Origin: Daejeonella lutea
GTDB lineage: Bacteria; Bacteroidota; Bacteroidia; Sphingobacteriales; Sphingobacteriaceae
Length of the DNA stretch: 64,000 nt
Assembly: GCF_900168015.1 (NCBI RefSeq)
Contig: NZ_FUYR01000002.1
Coordinates: 764,932-828,931 of the forward strand
Direction: 5' to 3'
The notes under the pieces are model-generated. The model was not told the origin of the DNA. It did no database searches and worked only from the letters and a program-made list of their open reading frames with translations. Both the position numbers and the translations under genes were made by a program. This document shows positions 16,615-33,809 of the stretch, piece after piece; positions within the stretch are counted from its first letter, which is position 1, and every line of letters starts with the position of its first letter.

Positions 16615-16693
16615 GGAGCGAGAACCGAGCAGCGACCTTTGGATTTCCGTGCTAGTTTTTCATGTCTCGACGCTCGATTCTCGTTTCTCGACG
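16615..16693. repeat. Heptanucleotide hairpin element A
   Basis: The right arm at 16665-16692 is four tandem heptads (TCTCGAC, GCTCGAT, TCTCGTT, TCTCGAC). The left arm at 16617-16637 is the imperfect reverse complement, about 15 of 20 positions when aligned by eye. The element fills the gap between the nitrilase-type gene and the DUF2490 gene. It is one of five such elements in the window. Confidence 0.6.
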
Positions 16694-16700
16694 GGCATTC

Positions 16701-17651
16701 TCATTTCCCCGCCAGCCATACCACATTCAACTCCGACTCATGATCCTGACCTAAAATGCCCCCATACAAATCCGGCCGCCTTGCTTTCCGGTATCTGTGG
16801 CCTCCGGCCTGGGTTAGTTTTTCCGGACTTATCGTCGCCGTCACTATCGAATCATCAAAGCTTCTGCATTCTGCTAATATATCCCCGAAAGGATCGAGTA
16901 TCATCGAACATCCGTTTTTGAGCTGATCGTCGTCCATGCCTATTGGATTCGAAAAAACCGCAAATATAGCATTGTCGTAAGCTCTGGATGGAAGCCATTT
17001 CATTAGCCAATCGCGGCCTTTCATGCCATCGAACTCCAGGCGTAATGATGTAGGATCATTTTCCCGGTTATACCATAGTTCTGGATCGACAAAACCTGCA
17101 CCGGGCCGTGTGGAAGGTGTACACATAGTTACATGCGGCATGAAAATAATATCAGCCCCAAGCAAGACTGTCGCCCTTACATTTTCAATGATATTATTGT
17201 CGTAGCAGATCAGAATGCCGCATTTCCAGCCGTGAATTTCAAAAACAGTGTAAGCATTTCCCGGATTCAGATGAGGATTGATGAACGGGTGGAGTTTTCT
17301 GTGTTTGGCAATCAGACCTGTTTTATCAACACATAGGTAAGCCTTATATAAACTATCGTCTTTTTCTTTTTCAAACAGTCCGGCGAGAATAGTGATGTTA
17401 TGTTTTGCTGCAATTTCCTGGAGCCTGATGATGCTGGGCCCTTCCGGGATGATCTCTGCAAGATCGAGCATTTGTTCTTTGTTGAGATGACGTGCGAAAG
17501 TATACCCGGTGATTGAACATTCATGAAAGGCCACAACCTGGGCTCCTTCATCTGCAGCCTTTTTGGCAAGTGTGTCTATAACAGAAAGATTATAGTCTTT
17601 GTCACCATTCCTGTTCTCGAACTGGGCGGTAGATATTTTGATTTTCTGCAT
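16701..17651 (-). CDS. Carbon-nitrogen hydrolase (nitrilase superfamily amidohydrolase)
   Basis: The start is the ATG at 17651 (MQKIKISTAQFENR), giving 316 residues; an extension to 17732 has no family character. The catalytic triad is visible as Glu44 in AFHECSITGY, Lys119 in HRKLHPF and Cys149 in GILICYDNN. The protein is cytosolic and would hydrolyse a non-peptide C-N bond (amide, nitrile or carbamoyl). The long insertion after the nucleophile (TMCTPSTRPGAGFVDPELWY) may define the substrate pocket, but the substrate cannot be named. It is transcribed alone, divergent from the dipeptide epimerase gene at 17846. Confidence 0.92.
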   Translation of the reverse strand: MQKIKISTAQFENRNGDKDYNLSVIDTLAKKAADEGAQVVAFHECSITGYTFARHLNKEQMLDLAEIIPEGPSIIRLQEIAAKHNITILAGLFEKEKDDSLYKAYLCVDKTGLIAKHRKLHPFINPHLNPGNAYTVFEIHGWKCGILICYDNNIIENVRATVLLGADIIFMPHVTMCTPSTRPGAGFVDPELWYNRENDPTSLRLEFDGMKGRDWLMKWLPSRAYDNAIFAVFSNPIGMDDDQLKNGCSMILDPFGDILAECRSFDDSIVTATISPEKLTQAGGHRYRKARRPDLYGGILGQDHESELNVVWLAGK

Positions 17652-17845
17652 GTAGTTTCGATAATTATGACTGAGGTTCGGTAATCCTGCTATTAAGCAC
17701 AGCCGAAACAAAAATAACACAGAAGAACGCAAAAATGAACAGGGATTGACGTTTTCTTGAGGAAGTATTTTAAAAAGGAAGCCTGAAATTTATTCGTATT
17801 GAAGATAATAAATTTTGTTATTTCGTACCATTAATCCCAGCCATT

Positions 17846-18859
17846 ATGAAGATCAGCTATAAGCCATTCGAACTTACCCTGAAACACCCTTTTACCATCG
17901 CAAAGTTCTCGCGTACATCAACGCCGATCATGCTAATGGAGATAAGCCATGAAGGCTTTACAGGATTTGGAGAAGCCTCTATGGTTCCCTACATGGGTGA
18001 GAACATGGAAACAGCTAATGCCTTCATGTCAAAAGTTGATTTATCGTGGCTAAAGCCTCCATTTAACTTTGATGAGGTGGTTGCTTACCTGGATAATATT
18101 GCACCCGGAAATCCCAATATAAAAGCGGCAATTGATATTGCTTTGCATGACCTGAAAGGTAAGATCGAGAACACCCCTTGTTATAAATTCTTTGGTACCG
18201 ACCCTTCTAAAATGCCTGAGACTTCTTACACGCTGGGAATCGATACGCCTGAAGTGCTGATCCAAAAGATCAAAGAAGGTGAACACTGCCACATTATTAA
18301 GGTTAAGCTTGGCCGCGATAATGATAAAGAGCTGATCAACACGATTCGTTCGGCTACTGATAAACCTCTTTTTGTGGATGCCAATCAGGGCTGGGCGGAT
18401 AAGCACCATGGGCTCGAAATGGTTAACTGGCTGCATGAGCAGGGAGTTGTATTAATTGAGCAGCCTATGGCCAAGGATGATCCTGATTCAAATGCCTGGA
18501 TCACCGAAAGAAGTCCGATTGCTATTGTAGGAGATGAGTCTGTGCAGCGCTTCGCCGATGTTGAAAAGGCGAAAGGAGTTTACCATGCGATTAATGTAAA
18601 GCTCATGAAAAGCGGGGGTATGTATGAGGGCCATCGGATGATCATGAAAGCTAAGGAGCTTGGCATGAAAGTGATGATTGGTTGTATGAGTGAAACCAGC
18701 TGTGCGACGCTGGCTGCTGCGGCCCTTGCTCCCCTGTGCGACTGGTCAGACCTTGACGGACCCTTCCTTACTAACAACAATCCGTATAAAGATCCGGAAT
18801 TCAAAAATGGTAAGTGGGTATTGAATGATGACCCGGGATTAGGTATTCGATTAAGGTAA
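17846..18859 (+). CDS. Dipeptide epimerase (enolase superfamily, L-Ala-D/L-Glu epimerase type)
   Basis: A 337-residue cytosolic enzyme of the mandelate racemase/muconate-lactonising subgroup. Catalytic lysines: Lys152 and Lys154 in the IKVKLGRD motif, and Lys252 in NVKLMKSGG. Magnesium ligands: Asp178 (VDANQGW), Glu205 (LIEQPM) and Asp230 with Glu231 (VGDESVQ). SETSCATLAA near residue 287 is typical of dipeptide epimerases. They invert the alpha-carbon of the second residue in dipeptides such as L-Ala-D-Glu during murein-peptide recycling; the exact dipeptide is not deducible. It is divergent from the nitrilase-type gene. Given the LD-carboxypeptidase at the window start, muropeptide use is plausible but not shown by linkage. 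Confidence 0.93.
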   Translation: MKISYKPFELTLKHPFTIAKFSRTSTPIMLMEISHEGFTGFGEASMVPYMGENMETANAFMSKVDLSWLKPPFNFDEVVAYLDNIAPGNPNIKAAIDIALHDLKGKIENTPCYKFFGTDPSKMPETSYTLGIDTPEVLIQKIKEGEHCHIIKVKLGRDNDKELINTIRSATDKPLFVDANQGWADKHHGLEMVNWLHEQGVVLIEQPMAKDDPDSNAWITERSPIAIVGDESVQRFADVEKAKGVYHAINVKLMKSGGMYEGHRMIMKAKELGMKVMIGCMSETSCATLAAAALAPLCDWSDLDGPFLTNNNPYKDPEFKNGKWVLNDDPGLGIRLR

Positions 18860-18882
18860 GTTCAGACCGACAGATTCCCAGT

Positions 18883-19071
18883 CTATTTCTTCCTCGTCAT
18901 TTCCCTCACGGTTTTTGCCAGCCTGATCTTGAGATAGATCAGCATGGCAAATGGCGGAGCTGCCGCAATTGCATATAAATAAAAACCATTCTTGATTGAC
19001 CAGAAAATGCAGAGGAAAAGCACGAAAAGGGCAATGTTCAGGAAAATATTAAATAGGATCTTTTTGAACAT
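18883..19071 (-). CDS. Small membrane protein, 62 residues (DUF6358-like)
   Basis: A 62-residue protein with two hydrophobic stretches (ALFVLFLCIFW and AIAAAPPFAMLIYL) and a basic C-terminus ending TVREMTRKK. I recall this shape from a Sphingobacteriaceae-specific small membrane family, but the assignment is uncertain. The start is the ATG at 19071, three bases after the rhodanese stop at 19075, so the two genes probably share a transcript. Function unknown; it could be a membrane partner of the rhodanese, which is inference. Confidence 0.75.
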   Translation of the reverse strand: MFKKILFNIFLNIALFVLFLCIFWSIKNGFYLYAIAAAPPFAMLIYLKIRLAKTVREMTRKK

Positions 19072-19074
19072 GGT

Positions 19075-19389
19075 TTAGTATACCTGCATGTCCGGATCGT
19101 ATTCTGCTGCCCAGGCTAAAATTCCACCTTTAAGGTTGTACAAGTTGGTATATCCCAGTTGCTCAAGCTGCATTACTGCGGCTGCGCTTCGTGCTCCACT
19201 GCGGCACTGCATAATTACGGGTTTGTCCTTGCTAACTTTAGAAGCTTCAACTACTAAGCCGGCCAGCGGGATATTTTCTCCGTCTATATTAGACATTTCA
19301 TATTCAAATGGCTCGCGAACATCAATAAGCTGGAAGTCTTCCTGATGATCGATTTTATGCTTTAATTCCTGTACTGTAACTTCTTTCAT
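19075..19389 (-). CDS. Single-domain rhodanese-like sulfurtransferase
   Basis: A 104-residue cytosolic protein forming one rhodanese domain, with the active cysteine in VIMQCRSGARSAAAVM and the conserved LIDVREPFEYEMSNI substrate-binding loop. Family members transfer sulfane sulfur to cyanide, thioredoxin or other thiols. It is separate from the CstB-like operon about 3.4 kb away but belongs to the same chemistry. It precedes the 62-residue membrane gene by three bases. A strong plus-strand promoter candidate lies at 19469-19497. Confidence 0.94.
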   Translation of the reverse strand: MKEVTVQELKHKIDHQEDFQLIDVREPFEYEMSNIDGENIPLAGLVVEASKVSKDKPVIMQCRSGARSAAAVMQLEQLGYTNLYNLKGGILAWAAEYDPDMQVY

Positions 19390-19468
19390 TTCCTTATAAT
19401 TTATTTTCGGTGATAATGAACCTGCAGGGCTTCTTTGAGCTTATTTACTGTTTTTTATTTCGACAAGC

Positions 19469-19497
19469 TTGTACAGATTTAATCTCTGGTATATTTG
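19469..19497 (+). promoter_or_regulatory. Bacteroidota-type promoter for the DUF4407 gene
   Basis: TTG at 19469-19471 and a perfect TATATTTG (TAnnTTTG) at 19490-19497 are separated by 18 bases, near the 19 expected. A transcript from here would have a leader of about 120 bases before the ATG at 19626. The matching -33 and -7 boxes make this one of the best promoter calls in the window. Confidence 0.6.
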
Positions 19498-19625
19498 TAT
19501 CACAAAGATATACATTTCCGCAATAATTAGTAAACTAAAGGCTTCACGGGGTGTTGCATTAAATAAAATGACACCGGTGTAACATGTTGATAAACCGGGC
19601 GTTTAATTAAATATTTCAATTTATA

Positions 19626-20744
19626 ATGAAGAAAGTCACCGATTTTTTCTGGTTCTGTTCCGGGGCGCATATTGACACCCTGAAAAGGTATCCAACTGAG
19701 CATAATAAGTATGTTGGTATCGGTGCGACCATTTTCTTTACTGCCCTCTTTGCCTCGCTGTCGGGTGGCTATGCGATGTACTTCGTATTCGCAGGTAACC
19801 CTCTTGCGGTGATATTTGCTATCCTCTTTGGACTGATATGGGGATTAGCGATTTTCAATATGGACCGTTATATCGTTGCCAGTATAAGCAAGAGCGGGAC
19901 CACAAATCAGCAAGTACTTCAGGCAACGCCTCGGATATTGCTTGCCATCATGATCGGAATTGTAATATCCAGACCATTGGAGCTAAAAATCTTCGATAAA
20001 GAGATTAGAGAGAAGCTGAAAACGAGCTATTTGAACGGGCAGCGTTCTAAGATTGACACCCTGAACAAGACTTTTGCCAACAAATACGTAACCGAGATCA
20101 ATAAGACTGCGGAGCTTAAAGCGGAAAAAGACTCGCTTGAAAAGGATATTAACCGATCCCGCTACATCCTGAACCAGGAGGTTTTTGGAGATAAGACTAA
20201 TCAAACGTCGGGTATTACAGGTTATGGCACCTACGCCAAGCAAAAGGAATCGCTTGTGGTGCAGAAAGAGCAAAGGCTTGAAACGCTCAGGAAAGAACTG
20301 GCCGGAATGGATGCTTTCTTTGCCCGGCGTAAGGATTTGGACGGCTTGTCCGATCAGAGAATGTTTAGCGGCAAGCAGCTGGACAGCCTGGCAAATGTTG
20401 CTGGCTTTGCTGACAGGAACTGGGCACTCGGGCAACTAAGCTTTAAAGAGGATGGAACCCGGGATATGGATAATTATCTTGCGATTTCCTTTATAGGCTT
20501 TTTGTTCATACTCTTTGAGTGTCTGCCGGTATTTGTGAAGTTGATGAGCAACAAGGGCCCGTATGATATTGCGCTTCAAAATGTAGATGAAACGTATATC
20601 TATAAATCAGATAAGACAAAAGACCAGGATATTGCTGTGACGGATGGGGTTCACGATACCCGCGTTACTACTGAGATCGATAAACAGAAGCAAATCGTAA
20701 CCCGAAGCTCAATAAGGGAACTCGAGCGGCATGACTGGGACTAG
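19626..20744 (+). CDS. DUF4407 membrane protein
   Basis: A 372-residue protein beginning MKKVTDFFWFCSGAHIDTLK. Two or three N-terminal membrane helices (about residues 28-60 and 62-80) are followed by IFNMDRYIVASIS, a diagnostic DUF4407 block. A charged coiled-coil-like region follows (about residues 145-255, many E, K, R and L), then another helix near residue 290. The fold looks like a membrane-anchored periplasmic or cytosolic coiled-coil protein. The family function is unknown. The C-terminal tail is soluble and charged. It is monocistronic, transcribed from the promoter near 19497. Confidence 0.88.
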   Translation: MKKVTDFFWFCSGAHIDTLKRYPTEHNKYVGIGATIFFTALFASLSGGYAMYFVFAGNPLAVIFAILFGLIWGLAIFNMDRYIVASISKSGTTNQQVLQATPRILLAIMIGIVISRPLELKIFDKEIREKLKTSYLNGQRSKIDTLNKTFANKYVTEINKTAELKAEKDSLEKDINRSRYILNQEVFGDKTNQTSGITGYGTYAKQKESLVVQKEQRLETLRKELAGMDAFFARRKDLDGLSDQRMFSGKQLDSLANVAGFADRNWALGQLSFKEDGTRDMDNYLAISFIGFLFILFECLPVFVKLMSNKGPYDIALQNVDETYIYKSDKTKDQDIAVTDGVHDTRVTTEIDKQKQIVTRSSIRELERHDWD

Positions 20745-20786
20745 CACTAGAGAACCAATAATCAGCGTATTTATAGATGAATAAGA

Positions 20787-20815
20787 TTTGCTAATTCTCG
20801 CATACACTAAATTCG
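20787..20815 (+). promoter_or_regulatory. Candidate Bacteroidota promoter for the M61-M28 operon
   Basis: TTTG at 20787-20790, a 17-base spacer and TAAATTCG at 20808-20815, one mismatch from TAnnTTTG. It would place the transcript start about 20 bases upstream of the ATG at 20843. The spacer is slightly short of the usual 19. Confidence 0.45.
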
Positions 20816-20842
20816 TATCTTCCACCCACCAATTAATCATCA

Positions 20843-22666
20843 ATGAAGCGTTTTCTACTCCTGGTATCCTGCACTATTGCAGCTCTGACAGTTTCTGCCC
20901 AAAACATTCTTAACTATACCATCTCTTTTCCAAATACGGTTCATCATGAAGCGGAAGTTACTATAGAGGTTCCAAATGTGCCCGCCGGTCCACTGACTTT
21001 CAGAATGAGCCGTTCTTCACCTGGCAGATATGCGACACATGAATTCGGGAAGAATGTTTATGGCGTTAAGGCTTCCGACAGTAAAGGCAGTCTCACGGTT
21101 ATACAAACTGCAGGTGATGTTTATCAAGTGGATAAACACAATGGAACTGTTAAGATCACTTATACAATTTATGGAAATCATGTAGACGGAACCTATCTTG
21201 GGATCGACGAAACACATGCGCATATGAACATGCCCGCAACATTTATGTGGTTTCCCGCAATGACAGAGAGGGCGATGAACATCACTTTTAATGATCTCGA
21301 AAAGTATAACTGGAAGGTTGCTACCCAGTTGAAACCAACTGGAACAAAGAACACCTTTACTGCCCCTAACCTGCAATACTTTATGGATAGCCCAACGGAA
21401 TTATCCGATTTTAAACTGGCAATTTGGAAGGATGTAAATCCTGGCAATAAGACTCAAACTGTTCGATTAAGCTCTCATGGTACTGCAGACGATCAGGCTG
21501 TGATTGATAATTATGGGAAAATGGTAGCTAAAGTGGTGGCAGAGCAAAAGGCTGTATTTGGAGAACTACCACAATTCGACAATGGTGAATATACTTTCCT
21601 TCAGGATGTAAATCCGGATAATAATGGCGACGGTATGGAGCATCGTAACTCTACGGTTATAACCAGCAGTGGTGTTAAGATTGCGGGAAATGAGGAATCT
21701 ATGCTTAGCACATTCTCTCATGAATTCTTTCACGCCTGGAATGTTGAACGCATCAGACCAAAGACGTTGGAGCCTTTTGATTTCTCTCACGCCAACATGA
21801 GCAATGAGCTCTGGTTTGCAGAAGGATTTACTCAATATTACGGTAACCTGATCTTAAAGCGCGCGGGTTTCAGAACAGATGAGCAATACAACGGGATTTT
21901 ATCAGGAATAATTAACGGAGTTTTAAATGCACCGGGCCCGAAAAGCTTCCCGGCCACTCAAATGAGCAGGCATGCAGTTTTCGTTGACGCAGGTGTTTCC
22001 GTTGATCAGAGCAATTATGCAAATATGTTTACGTCCTATTATACCTATGGTGCTTTTGTTGCACTGGGTTTGGATCTCCGCCTCCGTTCTGATTTCAATC
22101 TGACTCTTGATGATTATATGCAGGCCGTATGGAAGAAGCATGGTAAAACTGAAGTTCCTTATACGGTTCCCGATCTTCAGAATGTTTTAGCGCTCCTGAC
22201 AAGCGATAGCTTTGCTCAGGATTTCTTTAAACGATACATCGAAGGCGTCGAGAAGAATGACTACGCGAAGCTTTTAGCTCAAGCGGGATTAGAATTACGG
22301 AAAGCGTCACCTGGTAAAGCCACTATGGGTCCGTTGCGGCTTACGCTGATCTCATACACGGGAAAAAACCGCGTTGCAAATGCCACGCTAAAAGGTTCTG
22401 CATTATACGAAGCCGGAATAGACATCGGTGATTATATCCTTAAAATAGGAGAAACAAGCTTGACAGGTGCTGTCAACATTGATCAGATCACTTCACAATA
22501 TAAGCCTGGTCAGAGTGTACCTGTAACTTATGAACATAAGGGTGCGGTAAAGACCTCGACATTAACATTCCAGGAAGACAGCAGCCTAACGGTTGTTAAG
22601 GCGGAAAATCCGACACCACAGCAGACGCAATTCAGAAACAACTGGTTATCATCAAAACTAAAATAA
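20843..22666 (+). CDS. Secreted M61 family metallopeptidase with C-terminal PDZ domain
   Basis: A 607-residue protein with a signal peptide ending near VSAQ. An N-terminal beta-domain (residues about 20-190) precedes the zinc site: SHEFFHAWNVERIRPKTLEP gives HExxH (His293, Glu294, His297), and NELWFAEGFTQYYGN supplies the third-ligand glutamate. The C-terminal region about 500-590 (MGPLRLTLIS, then YEAGIDIGDYILKIGETSLT) is a PDZ domain. M61 enzymes are glycyl aminopeptidases that prefer N-terminal Gly or Ala. The stop overlaps the next start by one base (TAATG), coupling it to the M28 peptidase. Confidence 0.93.
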   Translation: MKRFLLLVSCTIAALTVSAQNILNYTISFPNTVHHEAEVTIEVPNVPAGPLTFRMSRSSPGRYATHEFGKNVYGVKASDSKGSLTVIQTAGDVYQVDKHNGTVKITYTIYGNHVDGTYLGIDETHAHMNMPATFMWFPAMTERAMNITFNDLEKYNWKVATQLKPTGTKNTFTAPNLQYFMDSPTELSDFKLAIWKDVNPGNKTQTVRLSSHGTADDQAVIDNYGKMVAKVVAEQKAVFGELPQFDNGEYTFLQDVNPDNNGDGMEHRNSTVITSSGVKIAGNEESMLSTFSHEFFHAWNVERIRPKTLEPFDFSHANMSNELWFAEGFTQYYGNLILKRAGFRTDEQYNGILSGIINGVLNAPGPKSFPATQMSRHAVFVDAGVSVDQSNYANMFTSYYTYGAFVALGLDLRLRSDFNLTLDDYMQAVWKKHGKTEVPYTVPDLQNVLALLTSDSFAQDFFKRYIEGVEKNDYAKLLAQAGLELRKASPGKATMGPLRLTLISYTGKNRVANATLKGSALYEAGIDIGDYILKIGETSLTGAVNIDQITSQYKPGQSVPVTYEHKGAVKTSTLTFQEDSSLTVVKAENPTPQQTQFRNNWLSSKLK

Positions 22667-23973: not shown

Positions 23974-23976
23974 GAA

Positions 23977-24462
23977 TTAGGAAAGTTTTTTCCGCATCAC
24001 ATAATCATTCAGAACAAACTGGTGGTATGGGATGTCTACAGTTTCAGCTATCTCGAAGCCCATTTTCTCGTAGAAACCCAGGGCAGGGTTGGCCCGGTTA
24101 ACGTTAAGCTCAACCTGCGGTATGCTTAACTCGCGGGCTATGCTAGTGAGATATTCTATAAGATTTTTTCCTGTTCCTTTCCCCTGCTCTGACGGGAGGA
24201 CATAGATCTTATGGATCTTGAGCACCGCCTCATTTTCTTTCGAATAACCGGCAAAAGCTACATTATGATTTTCTCTTTTTACCAGGATGAATTTCATTCC
24301 GCTCTGGATCTGTTGCAGAAGTGCATCTTCAGAATACATATTCTTAAGCATGAAACTGATCTGTTCGTCGGATAGGATGGGACGGTACGTCGGCCACCAG
24401 ATCTTTTCAGCGAGTTCATGAATTACCGGGATGTCATCCGCAGTCGCATTTACTATTTCCAT
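23977..24462 (-). CDS. GNAT family N-acetyltransferase
   Basis: A 161-residue cytosolic acetyltransferase. The acetyl-CoA pyrophosphate-binding loop is PSEQGKGTGKNLIEYL (Q/RxxGxG/A pattern), followed by IPQVELNVNRANPALGFYEK, which includes the typical NxxAxxFYxxxGF segment. The acceptor is unknown. It overlaps the stop of the TPK-like gene by one base (TGATG), so it is the last gene of the thiamin-locus transcript or is coupled to that gene. Nothing in the sequence links it to thiamin chemistry. Confidence 0.94.
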   Translation of the reverse strand: MEIVNATADDIPVIHELAEKIWWPTYRPILSDEQISFMLKNMYSEDALLQQIQSGMKFILVKRENHNVAFAGYSKENEAVLKIHKIYVLPSEQGKGTGKNLIEYLTSIARELSIPQVELNVNRANPALGFYEKMGFEIAETVDIPYHQFVLNDYVMRKKLS

Positions 24463-25028
24463 CAGATTTTTTCTGAAATGAATATAAATGGCTGGTCGAA
24501 CGTAAATGAATAGAAACCGTCCTTTTCGGTTTCCATGAAGTGCTCGTCTTTTGATACCAGACCGCTCGTACTTAAATTATGTATTTCATGTAGTAATTGC
24601 ACACTTTCACCAGCCGGTTGCCATTTACTGAAACCCGAGCGGACGGGAAAGATCTTTTGGTCGGCTATGAAGACCACTATGTCGATATCATCGACAAAAA
24701 GTGCGTAGTCTTTAAGCATAAACTCTGTGGTGATAATATTGACAGCCGGATATCCTTCACCAACCAGGAATTTCAGACAGTCCTCCAATGGATCCTTATC
24801 TGTTAGAATTATACGGGTGTTTTCCTGGGCTAGAAAATCTGGATTCTTCGTTAGCACGCCGTCTACCTTTAAAGCGAGTGAATCGGCCAACTCATAGATA
24901 TCCTCATGGACAATAACCGTTGGGCTCCATTCCAAAATCTGTCCCAGGTTCTCACTATCAAAGCCATCGAGGCTCATTATTAACAACGCTGGCTCTTGCT
25001 TTTCGCGGATGATGTGGTGTGAAGACAT
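24462..25028 (-). CDS. Degenerate thiamin pyrophosphokinase-like protein
   Basis: A 188-residue soluble protein. Segments match a thiamin-pyrophosphokinase (TPK) layout: a PALLIMS start strand, a central IIVHEDIYELADSLALKVDG region where TPK has the substrate-binding DGAAN...GIKPD, a RIILTDKDPLEDCLKFLVG segment resembling the D.D.TDLEKAL helix, and YPAVNIITTEF like the next strand. The catalytic GDFDS loop expected after KVD is instead VLTKNPD, and the second half shows no GGR-DH motif. If the homology is right, the kinase is inactive or does something else. The call is inference from architecture; other explanations are open. It is the third gene after the thiamin receptor. Confidence 0.45.
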   Translation of the reverse strand: MSSHHIIREKQEPALLIMSLDGFDSENLGQILEWSPTVIVHEDIYELADSLALKVDGVLTKNPDFLAQENTRIILTDKDPLEDCLKFLVGEGYPAVNIITTEFMLKDYALFVDDIDIVVFIADQKIFPVRSGFSKWQPAGESVQLLHEIHNLSTSGLVSKDEHFMETEKDGFYSFTFDQPFIFISEKI

Positions 25029-25050
25029 AAGACAAACTTAGGGATATTGG

Positions 25051-25143
25051 AATAAAGAACAATGAGCAAAGAACAAAGATTATGCCCGGCTCAGCTTCAG
25101 TTGGGCAGATGTCCTTAGTCTTTGTTCTTTGATCCTTGCTCAC
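25051..25143. repeat. Heptanucleotide hairpin element B
   Basis: The left arm (about 25051-25083) reads as heptads of the AAGAACA type (AAGAACA, ATGAGCA, AAGAACA, AAGATTA). The right arm (about 25113-25143) is their imperfect reverse complement in the same register. A GCCC...GGGC pair lies between the arms. A further pair of heptads (AAGACA type) overlaps the start codon of the TPK-like gene. The element separates thiE from that gene. Confidence 0.6.
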
Positions 25144-25149
25144 AATCTC

Positions 25150-25785
25150 TCAATGTGTCTTTCTATAAAATTCCTTTAATGCCTGCCCGGGATCTTCGGC
25201 GTGATTCACAGCCGCAGAAACAGCGATGCCGTATATGCCTGTTGAAAGCAATGAATCTACGTCACCGATATTCACACCGCCAACCGCCAGAACCGGAATG
25301 TCAAGGGAATTTTTTTGCATATTTTCTGCGATATGAGTATAGCCTGCCACACCTAAGTGGGGGTAATCATTGGGCTTTGTTGCGGTGTGGCTGAATGGTC
25401 CGCATCCAATGTAATCCACGACTCCGGAATGCGCTATTCGCTGTATATCTTCGATTGAATTTGCTGATGCGCCAAGCGTTTTTTCGTCGCTAATAATGTT
25501 GCGTATAGCAATAAAATCAGCTTCCATATTTTCAAGATGAACACCCTGCGCATCAACTTTATCAAGGAGATGATAGTGGTTGGTCAGAATGAGAGTCGCT
25601 CCCCAGTCGTCGCAGATTGAAGCAATTTGATGAAGTTCCTTTATTAGACCTTCGTCATCCTTGCTAAAACAACGGTATTGGATCCAGTTGGCACCCGCTT
25701 TACATGCTATTTCCGTTTGTTCAATATGGCTTCTTGATGGGAGGTCATGGGTGAGGTAATGTAGCTTTGAGATGTATTTTTTCAT
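25150..25785 (-). CDS. thiE: Thiamine phosphate synthase (ThiE-like)
   Basis: A 211-residue TIM-barrel enzyme of the ThiE/TenI group, which joins the pyrimidine (HMP-PP) and thiazole phosphates to form thiamin phosphate. Conserved blocks are the GANWIQYRCF strand (ThiE usually QLRxK; here an F replaces the lysine position), LILTNHYHLLDKVDAQGVHL, LGASANSIEDI, VDYIGCGPFSHTATKPND (phosphate-binding loop with TKP) and IPVLAVGGVNIGDVDSLL. The pyrimidine-side residues diverge from classical ThiE (NHYHL rather than NDxxDLA), so a TenI-like role is possible. It follows the receptor gene by 186 bases containing a palindromic repeat. Confidence 0.75.
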   Translation of the reverse strand: MKKYISKLHYLTHDLPSRSHIEQTEIACKAGANWIQYRCFSKDDEGLIKELHQIASICDDWGATLILTNHYHLLDKVDAQGVHLENMEADFIAIRNIISDEKTLGASANSIEDIQRIAHSGVVDYIGCGPFSHTATKPNDYPHLGVAGYTHIAENMQKNSLDIPVLAVGGVNIGDVDSLLSTGIYGIAVSAAVNHAEDPGQALKEFYRKTH

Positions 25786-25971: not shown

Positions 25972-28338
25972 TTAAAACTTCAAACTCAATGAAAGTAAGA
26001 AATTACCCGGTGCCTGCGTAAAATAATAGTTCTCTGTTGTGAATGCACCGCCATATAGATAGCTAAAGGTATAGCCATTCGACTCGTACTTCTCAGAAAG
26101 TACATTGTTTACAAGCAAAGTTAAGCCGATGGTTTTCAAGCCTCTGAACGATGTATTGTATGACAGCCTAAGATCATTCACGAAGAATGCGTCTAACTTC
26201 CTGGCAGAGTTTGATGTATTATCAAGATATTGGTCGCTTACATACTTACTCAACAAAGCAAGCTCGGTGCGCTTGAAAGGACGAAAGCTTAACTCACTTG
26301 AACCGATGAATTGCGGAGAGAACGCCAGATCGACATCGTTGTAATTATTAACGATTTGTCCTCCGTTATCATAATCATCTACAAATTCAGTGAAGTTTTT
26401 AATTTTATTATCACTTAATGATGCGGTGAGTCCCCATGCAAGGCTCCGGCTTAACTGCAGCCGGCTATCAAGCTCAATACCGATGCGGTAACTATCCTTA
26501 ACATTCTGCCGGATATACTCACCCACATCATTGATCTTTCCAGTGAGTACTAACTGATTGTTGTACATCATCGCGTAAGCATTCAGCCCGCCTGCAAATG
26601 TACCTTTACGAACCCTATAGCCAGTTTCAATATCCAATAAGTTCTCAGAGAATGGCCGCGAAGCAGGAGTGGAATTTACATAGTCATCACGGTTTGGTTC
26701 TTTGTTAGCTATTGCCAGGGACGCATAAACATTGCTGGAGGTGTTGAGCTGGTAAGTCAGGCCAATTTTAGGATTGAAAAAGTCAAGCTGGTCATTCTGA
26801 GCCAGTGTATTTCTATTCTTATCAGTGCCCGAGATCTTATAATTAATTGACCGGTACTGAAGATCGGCATACAGGTTCAGGTCGCCAATACTATAATCTG
26901 CCTTTAAATAGGTGTTGAAATCCTTCTTCAATCCGTTTCCCTGGTAATAACGCTGAAGATTAAGGTTGACCGGAACAAATTGGCCCCGGATTACCTCACC
27001 GAAATGGTCGCCATCATATTCGTTATATGCACCACCAAAGGTGAGGTTAACAGCAGATGCAGGAACGTAATTTAATGAATAAGTGAAACCATAAAAATCA
27101 TTATCCAGCCACCGCCGCCTGATAAGATCGCTTTCAGAAATGGTAGTTCCGCCGACGGTGTATGGAGCGACGCCATAGTTAGCCAGGTCCTGATCTTCTT
27201 TAAACTCCTCATAATAGCCTTTGCCGCGGGTGTAATGCAATGCTGCATTTGCTGAGAATGAAGGCGAAATTGTTTTGGAATACAGTAGCTGGTAATGATT
27301 CTGGACGTAATTATCCGTTTGATCATCGTAGCTAAAACTGTTGAATGTGCGGTTGGTATTAAGCAGATTTTCCGGTACCCCATTCCAGGCCTGATAAGTC
27401 TTTTCAGAACCAGAAAATACATTTGCACGGAGCAGGCTGCTTTTGCCATAATAGGCGCCGCTTAGGAAATATGATTTTAGGTCAGACGAGCCACGGTCAA
27501 TGTATCCGTCAGACTTGATCCTCGACAAGCGACCGTCAAAGCTTAATTTATTGTTTATAAGACCGGTCCCAACGTTGACGGTATTCTTCAAAGTTTGATA
27601 CGACCCAAATGTGTTATTCAATTCTGCATAAGCAGAATCGCGGCGTGTGGTTGTTTGGATATTCAGGCTGCCGCCAAAGGCTCCGGCACCATTGGTAGAG
27701 GTACCAACTCCGCGCTGGATTTGAATATTATCAACTGAAGATGCGAAATCGGGCATATTCACCCAAAAAGAGCCCTGGCTTTCAGAGTCGTTATAGGGGA
27801 TTCCATTCACCGTGACATTTACCCGAGTGGGGTCGCTTCCGCGGATGCGAATGCCAGTGTAACCAATCCCGTTTCCGGCATCGGAGCTTACAACCACTGA
27901 AGGCGTCTGATTTAACAGAAAAGGAAGATCCTGGCCAAGGTTATTTTTCTCCAGTTCTTCTTTGCTTACATTTCGGTAAGTGGTGCCAGAGTTTTCGGTT
28001 GCCCGGGTGGATCGGACCAATACTTCGTCGGCGAGCATGCTATTCGGACTCAGCTCGACATTTAGCGTGATATTGGCGTTTAGGTTGATATTCTGGACTT
28101 TGGTTTCGTAACCAAGGAAACTAATCCGGATGACGTATTTACCTTCTTTGAGATTTTTTAAAGTATAGCTTCCTGTTTGGTCGGACTGAGTTGACATATA
28201 CGAGTTCTCAACGTAGATGCCTGCCCTGGCTAATGCGGTTCCAGTTTGTTTGTCCGTAATTTTTCCGGTAATAGAAAATTGTGCTGAAGCCATGAACGGC
28301 ATCAGGATCGCCGCAGCGATAAATAAGAATTTTTTCAA
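25972..28338 (-). CDS. TonB-dependent outer-membrane receptor, predicted thiamin transporter
   Basis: A 788-residue receptor with signal peptide ending near FMASAQ. A CarboxypepD_reg domain (about 21-105) is followed by a plug (ADEVLVRSTRATENSGTTYR..., GTGGSLNIQTT, IRGSDPTRVNVTVNGIPYND) and a beta-barrel ending in a terminal aromatic residue (LSLSLKF). A TPP riboswitch lies 67 bases upstream on the same strand, which strongly implies that the cargo is thiamin or a precursor; in Bacteroidota this family position (Omr1) is known for thiamin uptake. The gene is followed by a thiE-like and a TPK-like gene. No pnuT-type inner-membrane permease is seen next to it, unlike in many Bacteroidota. Confidence 0.92.
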   Translation of the reverse strand: MKKFLFIAAAILMPFMASAQFSITGKITDKQTGTALARAGIYVENSYMSTQSDQTGSYTLKNLKEGKYVIRISFLGYETKVQNINLNANITLNVELSPNSMLADEVLVRSTRATENSGTTYRNVSKEELEKNNLGQDLPFLLNQTPSVVVSSDAGNGIGYTGIRIRGSDPTRVNVTVNGIPYNDSESQGSFWVNMPDFASSVDNIQIQRGVGTSTNGAGAFGGSLNIQTTTRRDSAYAELNNTFGSYQTLKNTVNVGTGLINNKLSFDGRLSRIKSDGYIDRGSSDLKSYFLSGAYYGKSSLLRANVFSGSEKTYQAWNGVPENLLNTNRTFNSFSYDDQTDNYVQNHYQLLYSKTISPSFSANAALHYTRGKGYYEEFKEDQDLANYGVAPYTVGGTTISESDLIRRRWLDNDFYGFTYSLNYVPASAVNLTFGGAYNEYDGDHFGEVIRGQFVPVNLNLQRYYQGNGLKKDFNTYLKADYSIGDLNLYADLQYRSINYKISGTDKNRNTLAQNDQLDFFNPKIGLTYQLNTSSNVYASLAIANKEPNRDDYVNSTPASRPFSENLLDIETGYRVRKGTFAGGLNAYAMMYNNQLVLTGKINDVGEYIRQNVKDSYRIGIELDSRLQLSRSLAWGLTASLSDNKIKNFTEFVDDYDNGGQIVNNYNDVDLAFSPQFIGSSELSFRPFKRTELALLSKYVSDQYLDNTSNSARKLDAFFVNDLRLSYNTSFRGLKTIGLTLLVNNVLSEKYESNGYTFSYLYGGAFTTENYYFTQAPGNFLLSLSLKF

Positions 28339-28399
28339 AATGTATAAATAAAACTAGTTAAACATCCTGCATAGTGGGGTTCTATACAGTTCCTTAACA

Positions 28400-28575
28400 T
28401 TACCTCCCTCCGCCGGCATTATCCGGATCAGGTGCTTCTTAAGTTGACAGTTGACAGTGGACAGTTGACAGTTCGCGCTAAACTCTCAACTCTCAACTCT
28501 CAATTCTCCACTCTTGAATGGGTTTAATCTCAGCCTGTTTTTGTGTTTGATTTCGCAAACAAGGCACCCCTTATT
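28400..28575 (-). promoter_or_regulatory. TPP riboswitch (THI element) with large insertion
   Basis: On the minus strand the 5' part reads GGGGTGCC (28570-28563), CTGAGA (28533-28528) and ACCC (28523-28520). The 3' part reads CACCTGATCCGGATAATGCC from 28434, followed by the GGCGGAGGGA end near 28405. These match the thi-box consensus; the usual CTGG/CCAG stem is here CCGG/CCGG, a compensated change. Between ACCC and CACCTGATC there are about 85 bases instead of about six. The insert is made of heptanucleotide repeats (element C). The riboswitch controls the thiamin receptor gene. Confidence 0.93.
28443..28515. repeat. Heptanucleotide hairpin element C (inside the TPP riboswitch)
   Basis: The plus strand has four GTTGACA-type heptads (28443-28473), then a GCGC spacer, then five CAACTCT-type heptads (28481-28515). 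The arms are complementary except for one G/G mismatch per heptad, so they can fold as a long imperfect hairpin with a periodic 7-base register. Confidence 0.75.
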
Positions 28576-28625
28576 GATGACGCAAATGTAGGAATAATTA
28601 TTACCTTGGATTAAAGAAGTTCGAC

Positions 28626-28937: not shown

Positions 28938-28990
28938 TACTGCCTTAATCCCCTGACTTCTAACTGAACCCTGCATAAAAATGCAATTTA

Positions 28991-29024: not shown

Positions 29025-29041
29025 GCACTTTAACGAATTTT

Positions 29042-30787
29042 ATGCTCAGAACACATACTTGCGGAGAACTAACCATCAACGATTTAAATAAAGAAGTTAC
29101 GCTTACCGGCTGGGTGCAGAAATCCCGGGATCTCGGGGGAATGACCTTTGTTGATATGCGTGATCGGTACGGTATAACGCAGTTAACGTTTAATTCTGAT
29201 GATAATGCAGAGCTGCGAGCACAGGCAAGGGATCTGGGACGCGAATTTGTAATAAAAGTCACCGGTAAAGTTATCGAGCGCTCCAATAAAAATCTTAAAA
29301 TGCCAACCGGTGAGGTTGAGATTAAGGTATCAACAATGGAGCTTTTGAATAGTGCTAAGCTGCCTCCGTTCCTAATTGAGGATGAAACGGATGGTGGCGA
29401 AGACCTGAGAGCCAAATACAGATATCTTGATCTCCGTCGTAATCCAGTTAGAAATAATCTGGTATTGAGACATAAAATGGCTCAAGAAGTCAGAAAATAT
29501 CTTGACGGGCTCGACTTTATTGAGGTTGAGACGCCAGTTCTTATTAAATCTACACCTGAAGGAGCACGTGATTTTGTGGTCCCAAGCCGGATGAATCCAG
29601 GTGAGTTTTACGCTCTGCCGCAGTCTCCTCAAACTTTTAAGCAGCTTTTGATGGTATCTGGTTTTGACCGTTATTTCCAGATCGTTAAGTGTTTCAGGGA
29701 TGAAGATTTGCGTGCCGACCGTCAGCCGGAATTCACCCAAATTGATTGCGAAATGGCCTTCATTGAACAGGAAGATATTCTGAATGTATTTGAAGGGCTG
29801 ATCCGCACATTATTTAAGAACGTTAAGGATGTTGATCTGATTGACGTTCCGCGCATGCAGTATTCGGATGCAATGCGGCTTTACGGATCTGACAAACCAG
29901 ATACACGGTTTGAAATGCAATTTGTTGAGCTTAACGACATCGTTAAAGGGAAAGATTTCCCAGTGTTCGACAATGCAGAATTGGTCATTGGGATTAATGC
30001 TAAGAACTGCGCAGAATACACAAGAAAGCAGCTGGATGAACTTACGGACTTTATCAAACGTCCTCAAATTGGTGCTACCGGATTAATTTACCTCCGCCAC
30101 AATAGTGACGGAAGCCTGAAATCTTCTGTTGATAAGTTCTACAACGAAGGTGAGCTTAACAAATGGTCGCAGATGTTTGATTCGAAGCCTGGCGATCTTA
30201 TGCTCATCATGGCTGGCGTGAAAGATAAAGTTCGCAAGCAATTGAGCGAGCTGCGCCTGGAAATGGGTAACCGTTTAGGCCTGAGAGATAAAAATGTGTT
30301 CGCGCCCCTTTGGGTCCTTGATTTCCCTCTTTTAGAATGGGATGAAGACACTCAGCGTTACCACGCAATGCACCATCCATTTACTTCGCCGAAACCTGAA
30401 GATATAGCCATGCTTGACACCAATCCTGGAGAGGTCAGGGCTAACGCATATGACATGGTCATCAATGGTACTGAAATTGGCGGAGGTTCAATCCGGATCC
30501 ATGACCGTGCACTTCAATCTTTGATGTTTAAGCACCTTGGTTTTAGCGTGGACGAAGCCCAGAAACAATTTGGATTTCTTCTGGATGCTTTCGAATATGG
30601 CGCCCCTCCGCATGGTGGTATTGCTTTTGGTTTCGATCGTCTCGTTTCCATTTTCGCCGGATTGGATTCCATTCGCGATGTTATAGCTTTCCCTAAAAAT
30701 AATTCGGGCCGTGATGTGATGATCGATTCACCTTCGACAATTGCAGAGGAGCAGTTGAAAGAATTGAAGATTAGCACGACAGTCTAG
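29042..30787 (+). CDS. aspS: Aspartate--tRNA ligase
   Basis: A 581-residue class II aminoacyl-tRNA synthetase. The start is the ATG at 29042 ([16 protein letters not shown]); an upstream TTG frame would add residues lacking the OB-fold start. The OB-fold covers about residues 1-105, class II motif 2 is represented by [20 protein letters not shown], the bacterial GAD insertion follows, and motif 3 is [12 protein letters not shown], with GAPPHGGIA just before. The tail [16 protein letters not shown] is typical of bacterial AspRS. Length and motifs are complete. Confidence 0.97.
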
Positions 30788-30788
30788 A

Positions 30789-30907
30789 GAATCAAGTTTC
30801 AAGTATCAAGTATCAAGATTTCCACAAGGCGCATCGTAGATTTAGAGAGGGCGTCAATGAATAAGTGGGAATCGATCTTGATTCCTGATACTTGGCTCCT
30901 GATACTA
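30789..30907. repeat. Heptanucleotide hairpin element D
   Basis: The left arm (30789-30820) has four heptads of the TATCAAG type. The right arm (30874-30907) has the imperfect reverse complement (CTTGATT, CCTGATA, CTTGGCT, CCTGATA). It lies between aspS and the glycosylasparaginase gene. It shares the 16-base string ATTCCTGATACTTGGC (30881-30896) with element E (33794-33809). Confidence 0.75.
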
Positions 30908-30925
30908 TTTTCCTAACTTTAAATC

Positions 30926-31948
30926 ATGGTAGATCGTCGTAAATTTCTCAAGGCAAGTTCCCTTGCTGGCGCTTCAATGCTGGCAGGCAATTCTTTTGCC
31001 GGAACTCCTAATTCCCCTTTTAAGGCAGTCCTGGATAATCCCATCGTAATCTCAACCTGGGATTTTGGTGTTGCAGCAAATGCAGCTGCTTGGGATGTGC
31101 TTAAAAATAACGGGCGAGCGCTCGACGCTGTTGAGAAGGGGGTTCACGTGCCTGAGGCAGACCTGAATAATCAAAGCGTTGGGAAGGGTGGTTTCCCTGA
31201 CCGGGATGGCAAAGTCACCCTTGACGCCTGTATAATGGATGAATTTGGGAATTGTGGCAGCGTAGCTGCTTTGGAGAACATCGTCCATCCAATATCTGTA
31301 GCGCGTTTGGTTATGGAAAAAACTCCGCATGTGATGCTCGTGGGTGAAGGAGCTTTGAAATTTGCCCGGCAACAGGGCTTTAAGGAAGAGAATCTCCTAA
31401 CGCCTAAGTCTGAAAAGGCATGGAAGGAGTGGCTTAAGAAGTCAGAATATAAGCCAGAGATTAATGTAGAGAATAAATCATTTCGTCCCGACAAGCTGCC
31501 GGGCAATAAGTTCAACCATGACACTATTGGTATGCTTGCGATAGACGCGAAAGGAAACCTTTCCGGCGCCTGCACAACCAGCGGAATGGCTTTCAAAATG
31601 AGTGGGCGTGTAGGCGATTCACCGATTATTGGTGCGGGACTATATGTTGATAACGAGATCGGTGGAGCGACATCAACCGGAGTTGGCGAAGAAGTGATCA
31701 GGAATGTAGGAAGTTTCCTGGTCGTGGAGCTTATGCGTCAGGGTTATTCACCTGAGGACGCTTGCAAAGAAGCGGTGATGCGCATCATCAAAAAGAAGCC
31801 GGAAATCGCAAAGGAGATTCAGGTGGGATTTTTGGCGATCAACAAACAAGGAAAATACGGCGCTTATGCCATTCAGAAAGGCTTTAGTTTTGCTGTCTGC
31901 GATAAAAAAGACCAATCTTTATTGATTAAAGGAAAGAGTTATTACTGA
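30926..31948 (+). CDS. Glycosylasparaginase (N4-(beta-N-acetylglucosaminyl)-L-asparaginase)
   Basis: A 340-residue N-terminal nucleophile hydrolase. The leader MVDRRKFLKASSLAGASMLA looks like a Tat-type signal, so it is exported. The autocatalytic cleavage and nucleophile site is NHDTIGMLAID, with Thr200 as nucleophile; GRVGDSPIIGAGLYVDNEIG and SGMAFKMSGRVG follow in the beta-chain as in the family. It would cut the GlcNAc-Asn linkage of glycoprotein fragments, fitting scavenging of glycopeptides. Its stop overlaps the start of cutC by one base (TGATG), which suggests an operon. Confidence 0.95.
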   Translation: MVDRRKFLKASSLAGASMLAGNSFAGTPNSPFKAVLDNPIVISTWDFGVAANAAAWDVLKNNGRALDAVEKGVHVPEADLNNQSVGKGGFPDRDGKVTLDACIMDEFGNCGSVAALENIVHPISVARLVMEKTPHVMLVGEGALKFARQQGFKEENLLTPKSEKAWKEWLKKSEYKPEINVENKSFRPDKLPGNKFNHDTIGMLAIDAKGNLSGACTTSGMAFKMSGRVGDSPIIGAGLYVDNEIGGATSTGVGEEVIRNVGSFLVVELMRQGYSPEDACKEAVMRIIKKKPEIAKEIQVGFLAINKQGKYGAYAIQKGFSFAVCDKKDQSLLIKGKSYY

Positions 31949-32682
31949 TGAAATACACGCTGGAGATCTGTGCAGGTTCTCTTTTATCGGCATTGAATGC
32001 CCAACAGGGAGGTGCTGATCGCGTAGAGCTTTGTGATAATTTATATGAAGGCGGAACTACGCCATCATACGGTATGATCAAAACCTGTATCTCACTGCTC
32101 GACATTCCATTTTTTCCAATCATCCGGCCGCGGGGTGGGGATTTCGTGTATTCTGATGCTGAATTTGACGTGATGAAGGAAGATATTCTAACTTGCTCAT
32201 TACTTGGATGTGAAGGAGTGGTATTTGGTATCCTTCGTCAGGATGGGACTATAGATAGTGAGCGATGTGCCGAACTTGCAGCAATTTCGGGATCAATGCA
32301 GTTGACTTTTCATAGGGCATTTGATCGCTGCATTGATCGGGAAAACGGACTGGAGTCCATTATTGATATGGGCTTCCATCGGGTTCTCACGTCAGGCGGA
32401 GCGGATCAGGCCGAAGGAGCTATCCCAGAATTAGGGCGTCTGGTAAAACAAGCAGGGAGCAGAATCAGTATAATGCCGGGTTCAGGAATAACCCATCACA
32501 ATTTGCTGACGATGGCAGACATGACGGGTGCTTTTGAATTCCATAGTACGGCAAAGAAAAAAATTGATCTGGAAAATAAAACTCCACCGAAAAACCTTGA
32601 TACACAATATCCTTATGAAACAGATGTTTCAATAGTAGCTAAAATGCGTGCAATCCTCGACGCAGCTGATCCACTGAGATGA
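31948..32682 (+). CDS. cutC: CutC family protein (copper homeostasis annotation)
   Basis: A 244-residue TIM-barrel protein beginning MKYTLEICAGSLLSALNAQQ, with GADRVELCDNLYEGGTTPSYG, MTFHRAFDR-like LTFHRAFDRCIDRENGLE, and LTSGGADQAEGAIPELGRLV in order. The last two are diagnostic for CutC. The family is annotated as copper homeostasis, but this role is not well supported and the enzymatic activity is unclear. Coupled to the glycosylasparaginase by a one-base overlap, it may have a sugar-related role in this context, which is inference. Confidence 0.93.
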   Translation: MKYTLEICAGSLLSALNAQQGGADRVELCDNLYEGGTTPSYGMIKTCISLLDIPFFPIIRPRGGDFVYSDAEFDVMKEDILTCSLLGCEGVVFGILRQDGTIDSERCAELAAISGSMQLTFHRAFDRCIDRENGLESIIDMGFHRVLTSGGADQAEGAIPELGRLVKQAGSRISIMPGSGITHHNLLTMADMTGAFEFHSTAKKKIDLENKTPPKNLDTQYPYETDVSIVAKMRAILDAADPLR

Positions 32683-32737
32683 AGATCAAACCTACCCACA
32701 TCAGCACAATTACCTAGCTATTTATATCTTAGCGGTG

Positions 32738-33700
32738 ATGAACCGCATAGACCGCATCTCCGCCATTCTTATCCATCTGCAATCACGGAAGGTTGTAAAA
32801 GCGCAAGACATCGCAGATAGATTTGAAATTAGCTTGCGAACTGTTTACAGGGATATACGAACCCTTGAACAAGCGGGCATTCCTTTGATCGGAGAAGCTG
32901 GAATGGGTTATTCCTTAGTTGATGGCTATCGCCTTCCACCCGTCATGTTTAGTCCGGAGGAGGCCCTTGCCTTTCTAACTGCGGAGAAACTTGTCGCCCA
33001 ATTGACCGACGGCCCCAACGCGGTAAATTACAGTTCCGCAATGTATAAGATTAAAGCGGTACTAGATGAAGATAAGAGGGAACTACTGCAGAATATTGGC
33101 GATCACATTGAGGTGTTCAGGCGTCCTGGTGAAGCTGGAATTCAGCCAGATCTCAATCTGATGCAACCCGTGTTGAAGAGCATTGATCAAAGAAAGGTGT
33201 TGCAGATAAAATACCATGCGCGATATAATCAACAAAAAACACAGCGTTTTGTAGAACCTTTGGGCGTATTTTATTCCGAAAATAGCTGGCATCTCATTGC
33301 ATTTTGCCGGATGAGAAACGATTACCGCGACTTTAGATTCGACCGCATATATTCAATGGAGCTGACTCAAATCGATTTCTCTAAAGAGCATCAGACTTTG
33401 AAAGAATATCTGGCGCGGTATGATGTCGAAAGCCCGGAAAATCAAAGCCTGCCTCTCGTTATCATAAGGGTAAATAAAGATAAGGCCTACTGGCTTGAAA
33501 ATCAGAAATATCATCAGGGTTTTATATCTGAAACAGACGAAAACGATGGGATAGCGATGAGTTTCTTATGCTCATCACTGCATGGATTCGCCCGATGGTT
33601 TATGATGTTCGGCGATCATGCGGAGGTCATACAGCCGGAGGCATTAAAAGACGAAGTACGTAAGTTGATAAAGGTGGTTTCGGAAAGGATGGAGAAATAA
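32738..33700 (+). CDS. YafY-type WYL domain transcriptional regulator
   Basis: A 320-residue regulator. The ATG at 32738 was taken; a GTG three bases upstream is equally possible. A DeoR-type winged helix-turn-helix (residues about 5-65, VKAQDIADRFEISLRTVYRD) is followed by a WYL-family sensory domain (about 140-310, PLGVFYSENSWHLIAFCRM, then FRFDRIYSMEL). Such proteins bind nucleotides or other ligands and repress DNA-damage or phage-defence genes in some bacteria. It is monocistronic here, and no defence gene is adjacent. Its targets are unknown. Confidence 0.93.
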   Translation: MNRIDRISAILIHLQSRKVVKAQDIADRFEISLRTVYRDIRTLEQAGIPLIGEAGMGYSLVDGYRLPPVMFSPEEALAFLTAEKLVAQLTDGPNAVNYSSAMYKIKAVLDEDKRELLQNIGDHIEVFRRPGEAGIQPDLNLMQPVLKSIDQRKVLQIKYHARYNQQKTQRFVEPLGVFYSENSWHLIAFCRMRNDYRDFRFDRIYSMELTQIDFSKEHQTLKEYLARYDVESPENQSLPLVIIRVNKDKAYWLENQKYHQGFISETDENDGIAMSFLCSSLHGFARWFMMFGDHAEVIQPEALKDEVRKLIKVVSERMEK

Positions 33701-33809
33701 TCAGGAACTAAGAAGGCAGAAACAAAACTTCGACAAAGCGATTGATACTTTAATCCAAAATGAGATTGTGAGTTGAGAGGTCTACCTATCCTAATTCCTG
33801 ATACTTGGC
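33700..33809. repeat. Heptanucleotide hairpin element E (weak)
   Basis: The right part at 33790-33809 contains the 16-base string ATTCCTGATACTTGGC shared with element D. The left part near 33700-33720 (TCAGGAACTAAG...) is only loosely complementary. A TGAGTTGAGAG stretch between the arms resembles the heptads of element C. It lies in the convergent gap between the WYL regulator and the LEA lipoprotein. Confidence 0.5.

Follow-up and report, generated by a model that had tools for sequence, protein, structure and literature searches.

What keeps a step of seven bases fixed while the bases themselves change from one copy to the next? The question is raised by 64,000 nucleotides of the Daejeonella lutea genome (contig NZ_FUYR01000002.1, positions 764,932 to 828,931 of the forward strand; the window), in which an earlier note described five intergenic hairpins, here elements A to E, with both arms made of tandem heptads. 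We scanned 863 kb of the D. lutea genome (G000), a fifth of its length, taking gene boundaries from simple open reading frame (ORF) calls made within the analysis, and compared it with G003, the closest relative sampled, whose proteins share a median identity of 86% with their reciprocal best hits in G000. The reading we favour, with a probability of about 0.45, is that processes acting on DNA both create the intergenic heptad-array hairpins and drive their turnover.

A total of 58 period-7 arrays, 56 of them non-coding, were identified in 463 kb of G000. The other periods between 2 and 30, multiples of 7 aside, gave at most two arrays each; three Markov shuffles of the same sequence contained no period-7 arrays. 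Over the full 863 kb there were 102 period-7 arrays, as compared to 0 to 8 at other periods that are not multiples of 7. The earlier note had proposed a check against shuffled intergenic sequence, and at a strict cut-off the 470 intergenic regions (86 kb) held 87 arrays while 20 shuffles held a mean of 0.10. The observation of period-7 inverted arrays is largely right and far beyond chance.

The heptads share a form but few letters. When phase and strand were fitted to 76 arrays without supervision, the profile was A-G-T followed by four looser positions, with a log-likelihood of 189 (60 restarts) as compared to 120–134 for ten column-permuted controls (15 restarts). AG[A/T] occurs on one strand in 59 of the 76 consensus heptads, on both in none and on neither in 17. 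The words are varied and include AGTTGAC, AGTATCA/AGAATCA, AGAACAA, CGTTATA, AGTAATC, AGTGGAA and AGAAGCG, among others. Of 84 G000 elements 10 had no assigned gap, and among the 74 element-bearing gaps 33 have a single array and 30 have one left-arm array, one right-arm array and no others; an element need not show both arms. The arms had been described as lying in the same register. This holds on average, the arm-to-arm heptad similarity being 4.87 of 7 in 31 arm pairs as compared to 4.12 for swapped partners (standard deviation 0.19, maximum 4.74 of 500), but some elements have arms of unlike heptads, such as L010 1583-1786 with AGTTGAC on the left and AGAACCA on the right. A complex locus (L006 9477-10224) contains several heptad-array copies linked by CTAGACGCTGCAAGAAAGG-like sequence.

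The AG-anchored strand points inward from both flanking genes. Among neighbouring arrays of G000 it points inward in 27 cases and outward in one, with 17 more in the same direction, and in G003 the counts are 10 and two, with three in the same direction and seven ties. Inward to outward ratios elsewhere were 3:0 in L022-L047, 6:0 in Bacteroidales loci (one same-direction) and 2:0 in G300, a genome of another family (one tie). Arrays read on the AG strand lie closer to the left gene and their complements closer to the right gene (p = 3.6e-11 in G000, p = 7.6e-6 in G003). The polarity is also seen in single-array gaps (p = 0.013 in G000 and 0.0026 in G003; by purine content 0.085 and 0.013), and in such gaps it was not significant in Bacteroidales (p = 0.89) or in the other Sphingobacteriaceae loci (p = 0.16).

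Counted per gap of at least 60 bp, element-bearing gaps in G000 are most frequent among convergent gaps (19, or 0.32 per gap), less so among tandem gaps (46, 0.20) and least among divergent gaps (9, 0.085). Of 48 tandem gaps in G000, 62% have an element beginning within 16 nucleotides past the upstream stop codon and 25% have one finishing within 16 nucleotides before the next start; uniform placement yields 41% near the stop, with a maximum of 60% in 2000 trials. For 30 tandem gaps of G003 the values are 60% near the stop and 40% near the start; uniform placement gives 45% near the stop, and the observed 60% does not leave the range spanned by its trials. Elements simply fill their gap, which accounts for part of their adjacency to stop codons.

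The comparison of copies that had been proposed for strains was made here between the two species. There were 306 orthologous gaps, 181 of which are at least 60 bp; 32 contain arrays in both species, 20 in G003 only, 13 in G000 only and 116 in neither, so that sites are conserved (Fisher odds ratio 14, p = 3.8e-12), and each of the control periods 5, 6 and 8–13 has at most one shared gap. In pairs 3 and 4, with aligned flanks, both arms are swapped, AGAACAA-type in G003 versus AGAATCA-/AGTATCA-type in G000; flanks are likewise aligned in pair 27 (AACTGAA versus AGTGGAC types) and pair 30 (GGAAATG-like versus AGTAATC). Other pairs retain the word (e.g. 12, 15, 23, 26 and 29), and pair 24 is altered on one arm. 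Both arms were detected in both species in 17 pairs; judged by eye, about ten of these are changed on both arms, three on a single arm and four on neither. The two species tend to share the positions but often not the heptad, which is commonly exchanged on both arms. Together with the period-7 counts and the shuffles, the conserved sites and swapped words lend good support to the proposal of a dispersed family with a fixed period of 7 and a fast-changing sequence. Across those 17 gaps, the similarity of the two arms within an element was 0.507, as compared to 0.471 and 0.472 for the same arm across species (Wilcoxon p = 0.035) and 0.428 for arms of other loci (0 of 2000 permutations), a modest sign that the two arms of one element may be coupled in evolution.

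If the hairpins turn over at the DNA level, their arms would grow and shrink in seven-base steps by replication slippage, and the inverted arms would be partly homogenised by template switching between them, a process that creates and mends hairpin stems according to the portion of PMC8794818 used here. Arrays at separate loci would trade heptad types by ectopic copying, aided by their common AG-anchored form. They would be tolerated in places where they do little harm, chiefly past stop codons and at a distance from divergent promoters; the position would then be inherited and the word replaced, and most copies would have no selected function. We favour a DNA-level process because it agrees with what was seen: neither strand is preferred, gaps are filled, the arms look coupled and the sites are inherited. 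Several observations weigh against it. Shared non-periodic words of 18–20 bases are about equally dense inside and outside element gaps in G000, and somewhat denser inside in G003; ectopic exchange was not seen directly; and slippage alone leaves the AG anchor, the polarity, the inner boxes and the 28-base core (see below) unexplained. Among the orthologous gaps, divergent ones are less strongly avoided, with arrays in both species in five of 30, and the arm coupling is modest (p = 0.035, n = 17), with five of the 17 gaps in reverse. G000, with its 102 arrays of varied words that follow a rule of polarity, and a sister species in which words are swapped at the same sites make it possible to test how seven-base repeats of bacteria originate, and a comparison of strains could separate slippage, template switching, ectopic copying and mobility.

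Mobility is the main rival explanation, although we consider it unlikely. The arrays would then be a non-autonomous family, similar to miniature inverted-repeat transposable elements or REPINs, whose ends are inward-facing tandem seven-base binding sites for an enzyme supplied in trans, and a swap would mean that a fresh insertion has displaced an earlier one at a preferred site. Multi-site transposon ends carry inward tandem units, which the arms resemble, and several swaps alter the interior as well, with the flanks unchanged. Three oriented boxes, selected as the strongest among many 6-mers, recur directly inward of the arms in a set of 187 arrays (CGTACC 14 times as compared to 1.1 expected, TGGGCG 12 to 0.7 and ACGCTG 10 to 1.2), and their presence with different heptads, in both G000 and G003, is in agreement with a mobile family. 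Only about half of the boxes in intergenic DNA are located within 80 nucleotides of a detected array, namely 7/16 in G000 and 5/9 in G003 for CGTACCT, 6/12 and 4/8 for TGGGCGG, and 6/9 and 2/4 for AAACGCTG. A 28-base core, CTAAACGCTGNGTTATCCGNCCAGACGT, marks one subfamily and occurs at 10 sites with up to five mismatches (four in sampled stretches and six in four loci fetched by querying that core), with heptad-like sequence adjacent by eye; this subfamily is the best evidence for a mobile component. The core was found in one of 61 genomes of the family, G000 itself (G003 was outside the draw), and the reversed pattern in none, while a shuffled-pattern control at nine mismatches (mean 41 versus 38 observed) was uninformative.

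A single core common to most copies was searched for and not found, only a subfamily having one, which argues against mobility. The earlier note had suggested a link to a RAYT-like transposase, and this was not supported: G000 has no Y1_Tnp match, other transposases not having been searched, whereas the same model matches 5 of 14 control genomes. Inspection by eye of the first 16 discordant pairs, few of which have clean junctions, revealed no evident target-site duplication, and pair 13 retains its inner sequence though both outer arms differ (by eye). REP and REPIN sequences are dispersed intergenic hairpins with a RAYT transposase. The present arrays are dispersed intergenic hairpins too, but without a RAYT match in G000 and with arms of tandem heptads that vary between copies. 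The sole RVT_1 match in G000 (L211 904-2673, minus strand, contig C10) is a reverse transcriptase of the UG39 defence type, and a reverse transcriptase was rejected as the driver since nothing seen here ties the UG39 gene to the arrays. Shared non-periodic 16-base words in G000 number 57 in 33 of 77 element gaps and 83 in 36 of 324 other gaps, many of them array words. Boxes like GGCGYAGCCACTG recur amid AGTAATC-type heptads (L010 14796 region, pair 21 of the orthologous gaps and pair 7 of the discordant ones) and are possibly another core subfamily.

The arrays might instead act in RNA, as terminators or mRNA-stabilising hairpins at 3' ends that are selected for pairing rather than sequence, a role we regard as improbable. 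The placement after stop codons agrees with it, as do a terminator-like hairpin at the site of element D in the relative L023 and the stronger structure of element gaps (mean fold z −2.4, n = 93, as compared to −1.6 in the first 150 element-free non-divergent gaps). However, sense and antisense fold energies in 61 tandem gaps with elements, taken from both species, split 31:30 (p = 0.70), with a mean difference of +1.5 kcal/mol in the wrong direction, and single arrays in tandem gaps are AG-sense in 11 cases and antisense in 11. Canonical terminators were not significantly depleted, occurring in 20 of the 67 gaps with an element and 89 of the 217 without one in G000 (p = 0.11) and in 16 of 46 and 70 of 171 in G003 (p = 0.50), using a scanner for a GC stem and T tract that also fires in ∼10% of shuffled gaps. 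The idea that an element stands in for a canonical terminator is not supported. Rho-loading arrays, which have a 7-base spacing on a pyrimidine strand, were rejected as well, given the 11:11 split of single tandem-gap arrays between strands. Outside the riboswitch described below, the fold comparison indicates no RNA-strand preference, and the 31:30 split argues for an origin at the DNA level. Intergenic hairpins of the heptad kind need not be terminators.

Element C is, by its match to RF00059, the predicted P3 extension of a thiamine pyrophosphate (TPP) riboswitch (Table 1), located upstream of a TonB-dependent receptor ORF (25972-28338), with an aptamer sequence that is conserved in relatives by eye. 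The model is aligned end to end, and the score of 31.9 bits is below the gathering score of 54.3, apparently because P3 is enlarged. Two orthologous aptamers are also below gathering (L022, 38.8 bits; L024, 34.6 bits), and further ones were recognised by eye; at the gathering score there was no match in the window or in six relatives' loci. Period-7 arrays were detected in 8 of the P3 inserts of 11 relatives. Those of L024, L025, L029 and L037 have AGTTGA-type words as in the window, with different last bases, L021 has CGTTGTA with AGCTATC, L023 and L026 have AGTTATA-type words and L041 has an A+T-rich array. The insert of L045 is heptad-like by eye only, and those of L022 and L030 are non-heptad hairpins. 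The sense strand folds better than the antisense strand in 11 of 12 P3 inserts (window included), with one tie, although the species are related and the trials not independent. RNA pairing thus looks to be selected in the TPP P3 and not in the elements generally, because the sense preference of 11/12 there compares to 31:30 across the tandem gaps. As in other TPP riboswitches with a P3 extension, element C is part of the predicted aptamer, but it is built of heptad arrays whose word varies between some species, an example of a putative riboswitch stem made of heptad repeats.

The spread of the words bears on a further possibility, that the arrays are DNA sites which a nucleoid or replication protein binds cooperatively, recognising AGWNNNN at 7-bp intervals. 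This is quite improbable in our estimation. In its favour, the AG anchor and polarity are common to several Bacteroidota samples, and AGTTGAC (three units, at most two mismatches) occurs in 16 of 296 Bacteroidota genomes (G000 included), from 9 of 139 genera, as compared to 0/296 for one control word, whose reversed form matches one genome. AGTTGAC read backwards matches as often as it does forward because the reversed word is a rotation of itself. Four of the seven heptad positions vary widely, though, and at a score of 17 there is one array in 100 kb of the same-genus G016 and none in 200 kb of G102. The AGTTGAC matches themselves number 116 in G000 and none in G013 of the same genus. G300 has 8 arrays in 200 kb, and four of its five tandem elements begin within 6 nucleotides of a stop codon. 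Loci L021-L120 (1.42 Mb, partly overlapping) hold 44 period-7 arrays as compared to 21 at periods 5, 6 and 8–11, period 7 being less dominant in the Bacteroidales loci. Exact (AGTTGAC)3 was also seen in 11 stretches of ten viral contigs (L212-L222).

Heptameric repeats are known from other bacteria. The passages of PMC4692102 drawn on here describe Xanthomonas and Nostoc repeats (GGGAATC / GGGGA(C/T)T) that are intergenic, close to the upstream gene and few between divergent genes, and whose G-rich strand is the coding strand just after stops and the non-coding strand just before starts. In two Xanthomonas the repeats lie mostly between the same genes while varying in length and sequence, and these passages report them as generally without adjacent mobile elements. 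The arrays described here are alike in period 7, intergenic excess, stop proximity, scarcity between divergent genes and polarity and, as compared to Xanthomonas, in conserved sites with changing sequence. They differ in that the Xanthomonas and Nostoc repeats have one G-rich, quadruplex-capable word per lineage, whereas G000 has many AG-anchored words, often in inverted pairs and swapped between species. Judged by reading only, the main words (AGTTGAC, AGTATCA, CGTTATA etc.) lack quadruplex-capable GGG units, though a few arrays are G-rich (pairs 9 and 30 in G003). We would file the arrays as a variant of the Xanthomonas and Nostoc kind, set apart by inverted arms, many words and word replacement. 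Taken with our data, that portion of the text suggests that the polarity could be one rule across three phyla.

TAACTGA direct repeats, heptamers that are mostly intergenic, are described in the sections of PMC4679880 used here for Beggiatoaceae, cyanobacteria and five Bacteroidetes, which also mention further heptamers in some gaps of Gramella forsetii, A. sublithincola and Elizabethkingia. The reverse complement of TAACTGA can be rotated to AGTTATC, in keeping with the AGWNNNN of the present arrays. Unlike here, the Maribeggiatoa repeats are, in those sections, mostly direct sets just upstream of start codons, with one inverted repeat in 170 sets, and related heptamers are rare as repeats. 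According to work cited in the consulted parts of PMC4679880 and PMC4692102, seven is the unit length that longer repeats of bacteria favour, and the only explanation offered is a conjecture on the footprint of the polymerase. A literature search of mostly open-access papers, with few subscription papers or preprints covered, found no description of inverted heptad arrays as a Bacteroidota family. A broader proposal, which we regard as doubtful, is that a widespread class of DNA in Bacteroidota obeys constant rules (a step of 7 bases, the AG anchor, polarity towards the inside and inner boxes). These rules would be inherited at fixed intergenic sites while the word is rewritten, often on both arms together, by a copying mechanism that is dedicated or at least specific, and the heptamers of Xanthomonas, Nostoc and Beggiatoa would then be further dialects of that mechanism.

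The five window elements were each scored by their best period-7 window (out of 21) against 500 dinucleotide shuffles. Element C scored 20, D scored 18 and each arm of B scored 16, and none of these was equalled in 500 shuffles. Element A is marginal and mostly one-armed (score 15, 1/500 shuffles as good), its right arm being clear and its left arm scoring just 13, and the right arm of D is detectable at period 14 only. For E the heptad periodicity is not significant (score 11, matched by 101/500 shuffles), and Tandem Repeats Finder gave period-7 rows for A–D and none for E. Of the five heptad elements claimed, B, C and D are therefore strong, and E is an inverted repeat with no demonstrable heptads by the shuffle scores. 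Elements D and E do have the exact 16-mer ATTCCTGATACTTGGC in common, as claimed. All five had been placed between genes, which is the case for A, B, D and E; C lies inside the predicted TPP riboswitch leader and not in a plain spacer. Window arrays scoring at least 16 were found at periods 7 (five), 3 (two), 12 (one), 14 (three), 21 (two) and 24 (two), and at no other period from 2 to 24. RNA fold z-scores were −1.06 for A, −2.50 for B, −4.18 for C, −2.42 for D and −1.37 for E.

Table 1. Elements A to E of the window and the putative riboswitch aptamer that contains element C.
Feature	Position	Strand	Description
Element A	16608..16696	.	Right arm 16656-16696 (reverse-complement heptads of CGAGAAN type), weak left arm 16608-16637
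Element B	25042..25146	.	Arms 25042-25085 and 25104-25146, heptads AGAACAA/AGGATCA
TPP riboswitch aptamer	28388..28530	minus	Putative; RF00059 match, 31.9 bits, full length
Element C	28436..28519	minus	AGTTGAG/AGTTGAC heptad arms, predicted P3 extension of the TPP riboswitch
Element D	30784..30917	.	Left arm 30784-30823 (AGTATCA heptads), right arm 30872-30917 (period 14)
Element E	33700..33809	.	Imperfect inverted repeat, fills convergent gap

Four of the five elements (A, B, D and E) adjoin a stop codon. Element A adjoins that of a carbon-nitrogen hydrolase ORF (16701-17732, minus strand), B sits between the adjacent stop codon of a thiE-like ORF (25150-25785, minus strand) and the ORF 24462-25028, D begins at the aspS stop codon (30787) and has an asparaginase gene on its other side, and E is flanked by the stop codons of a WYL ORF (ending at 33700) and the ORF 33811-34413 (minus strand). 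By eye, the site of element B has the same heptad class in the relatives L021, L024, L026, L028, L029 and L037, no such heptads in L022 and L023, and an ambiguous sequence in L025. A similar stretch of ∼200 bases resides within the site-B heptad element of L024, L026 and L029 and is missing from the window. At the site of element D, also by eye, L021 has AGAATCA heptads, L023 the terminator-like hairpin, and L024, L026 and L037 have different sequence.

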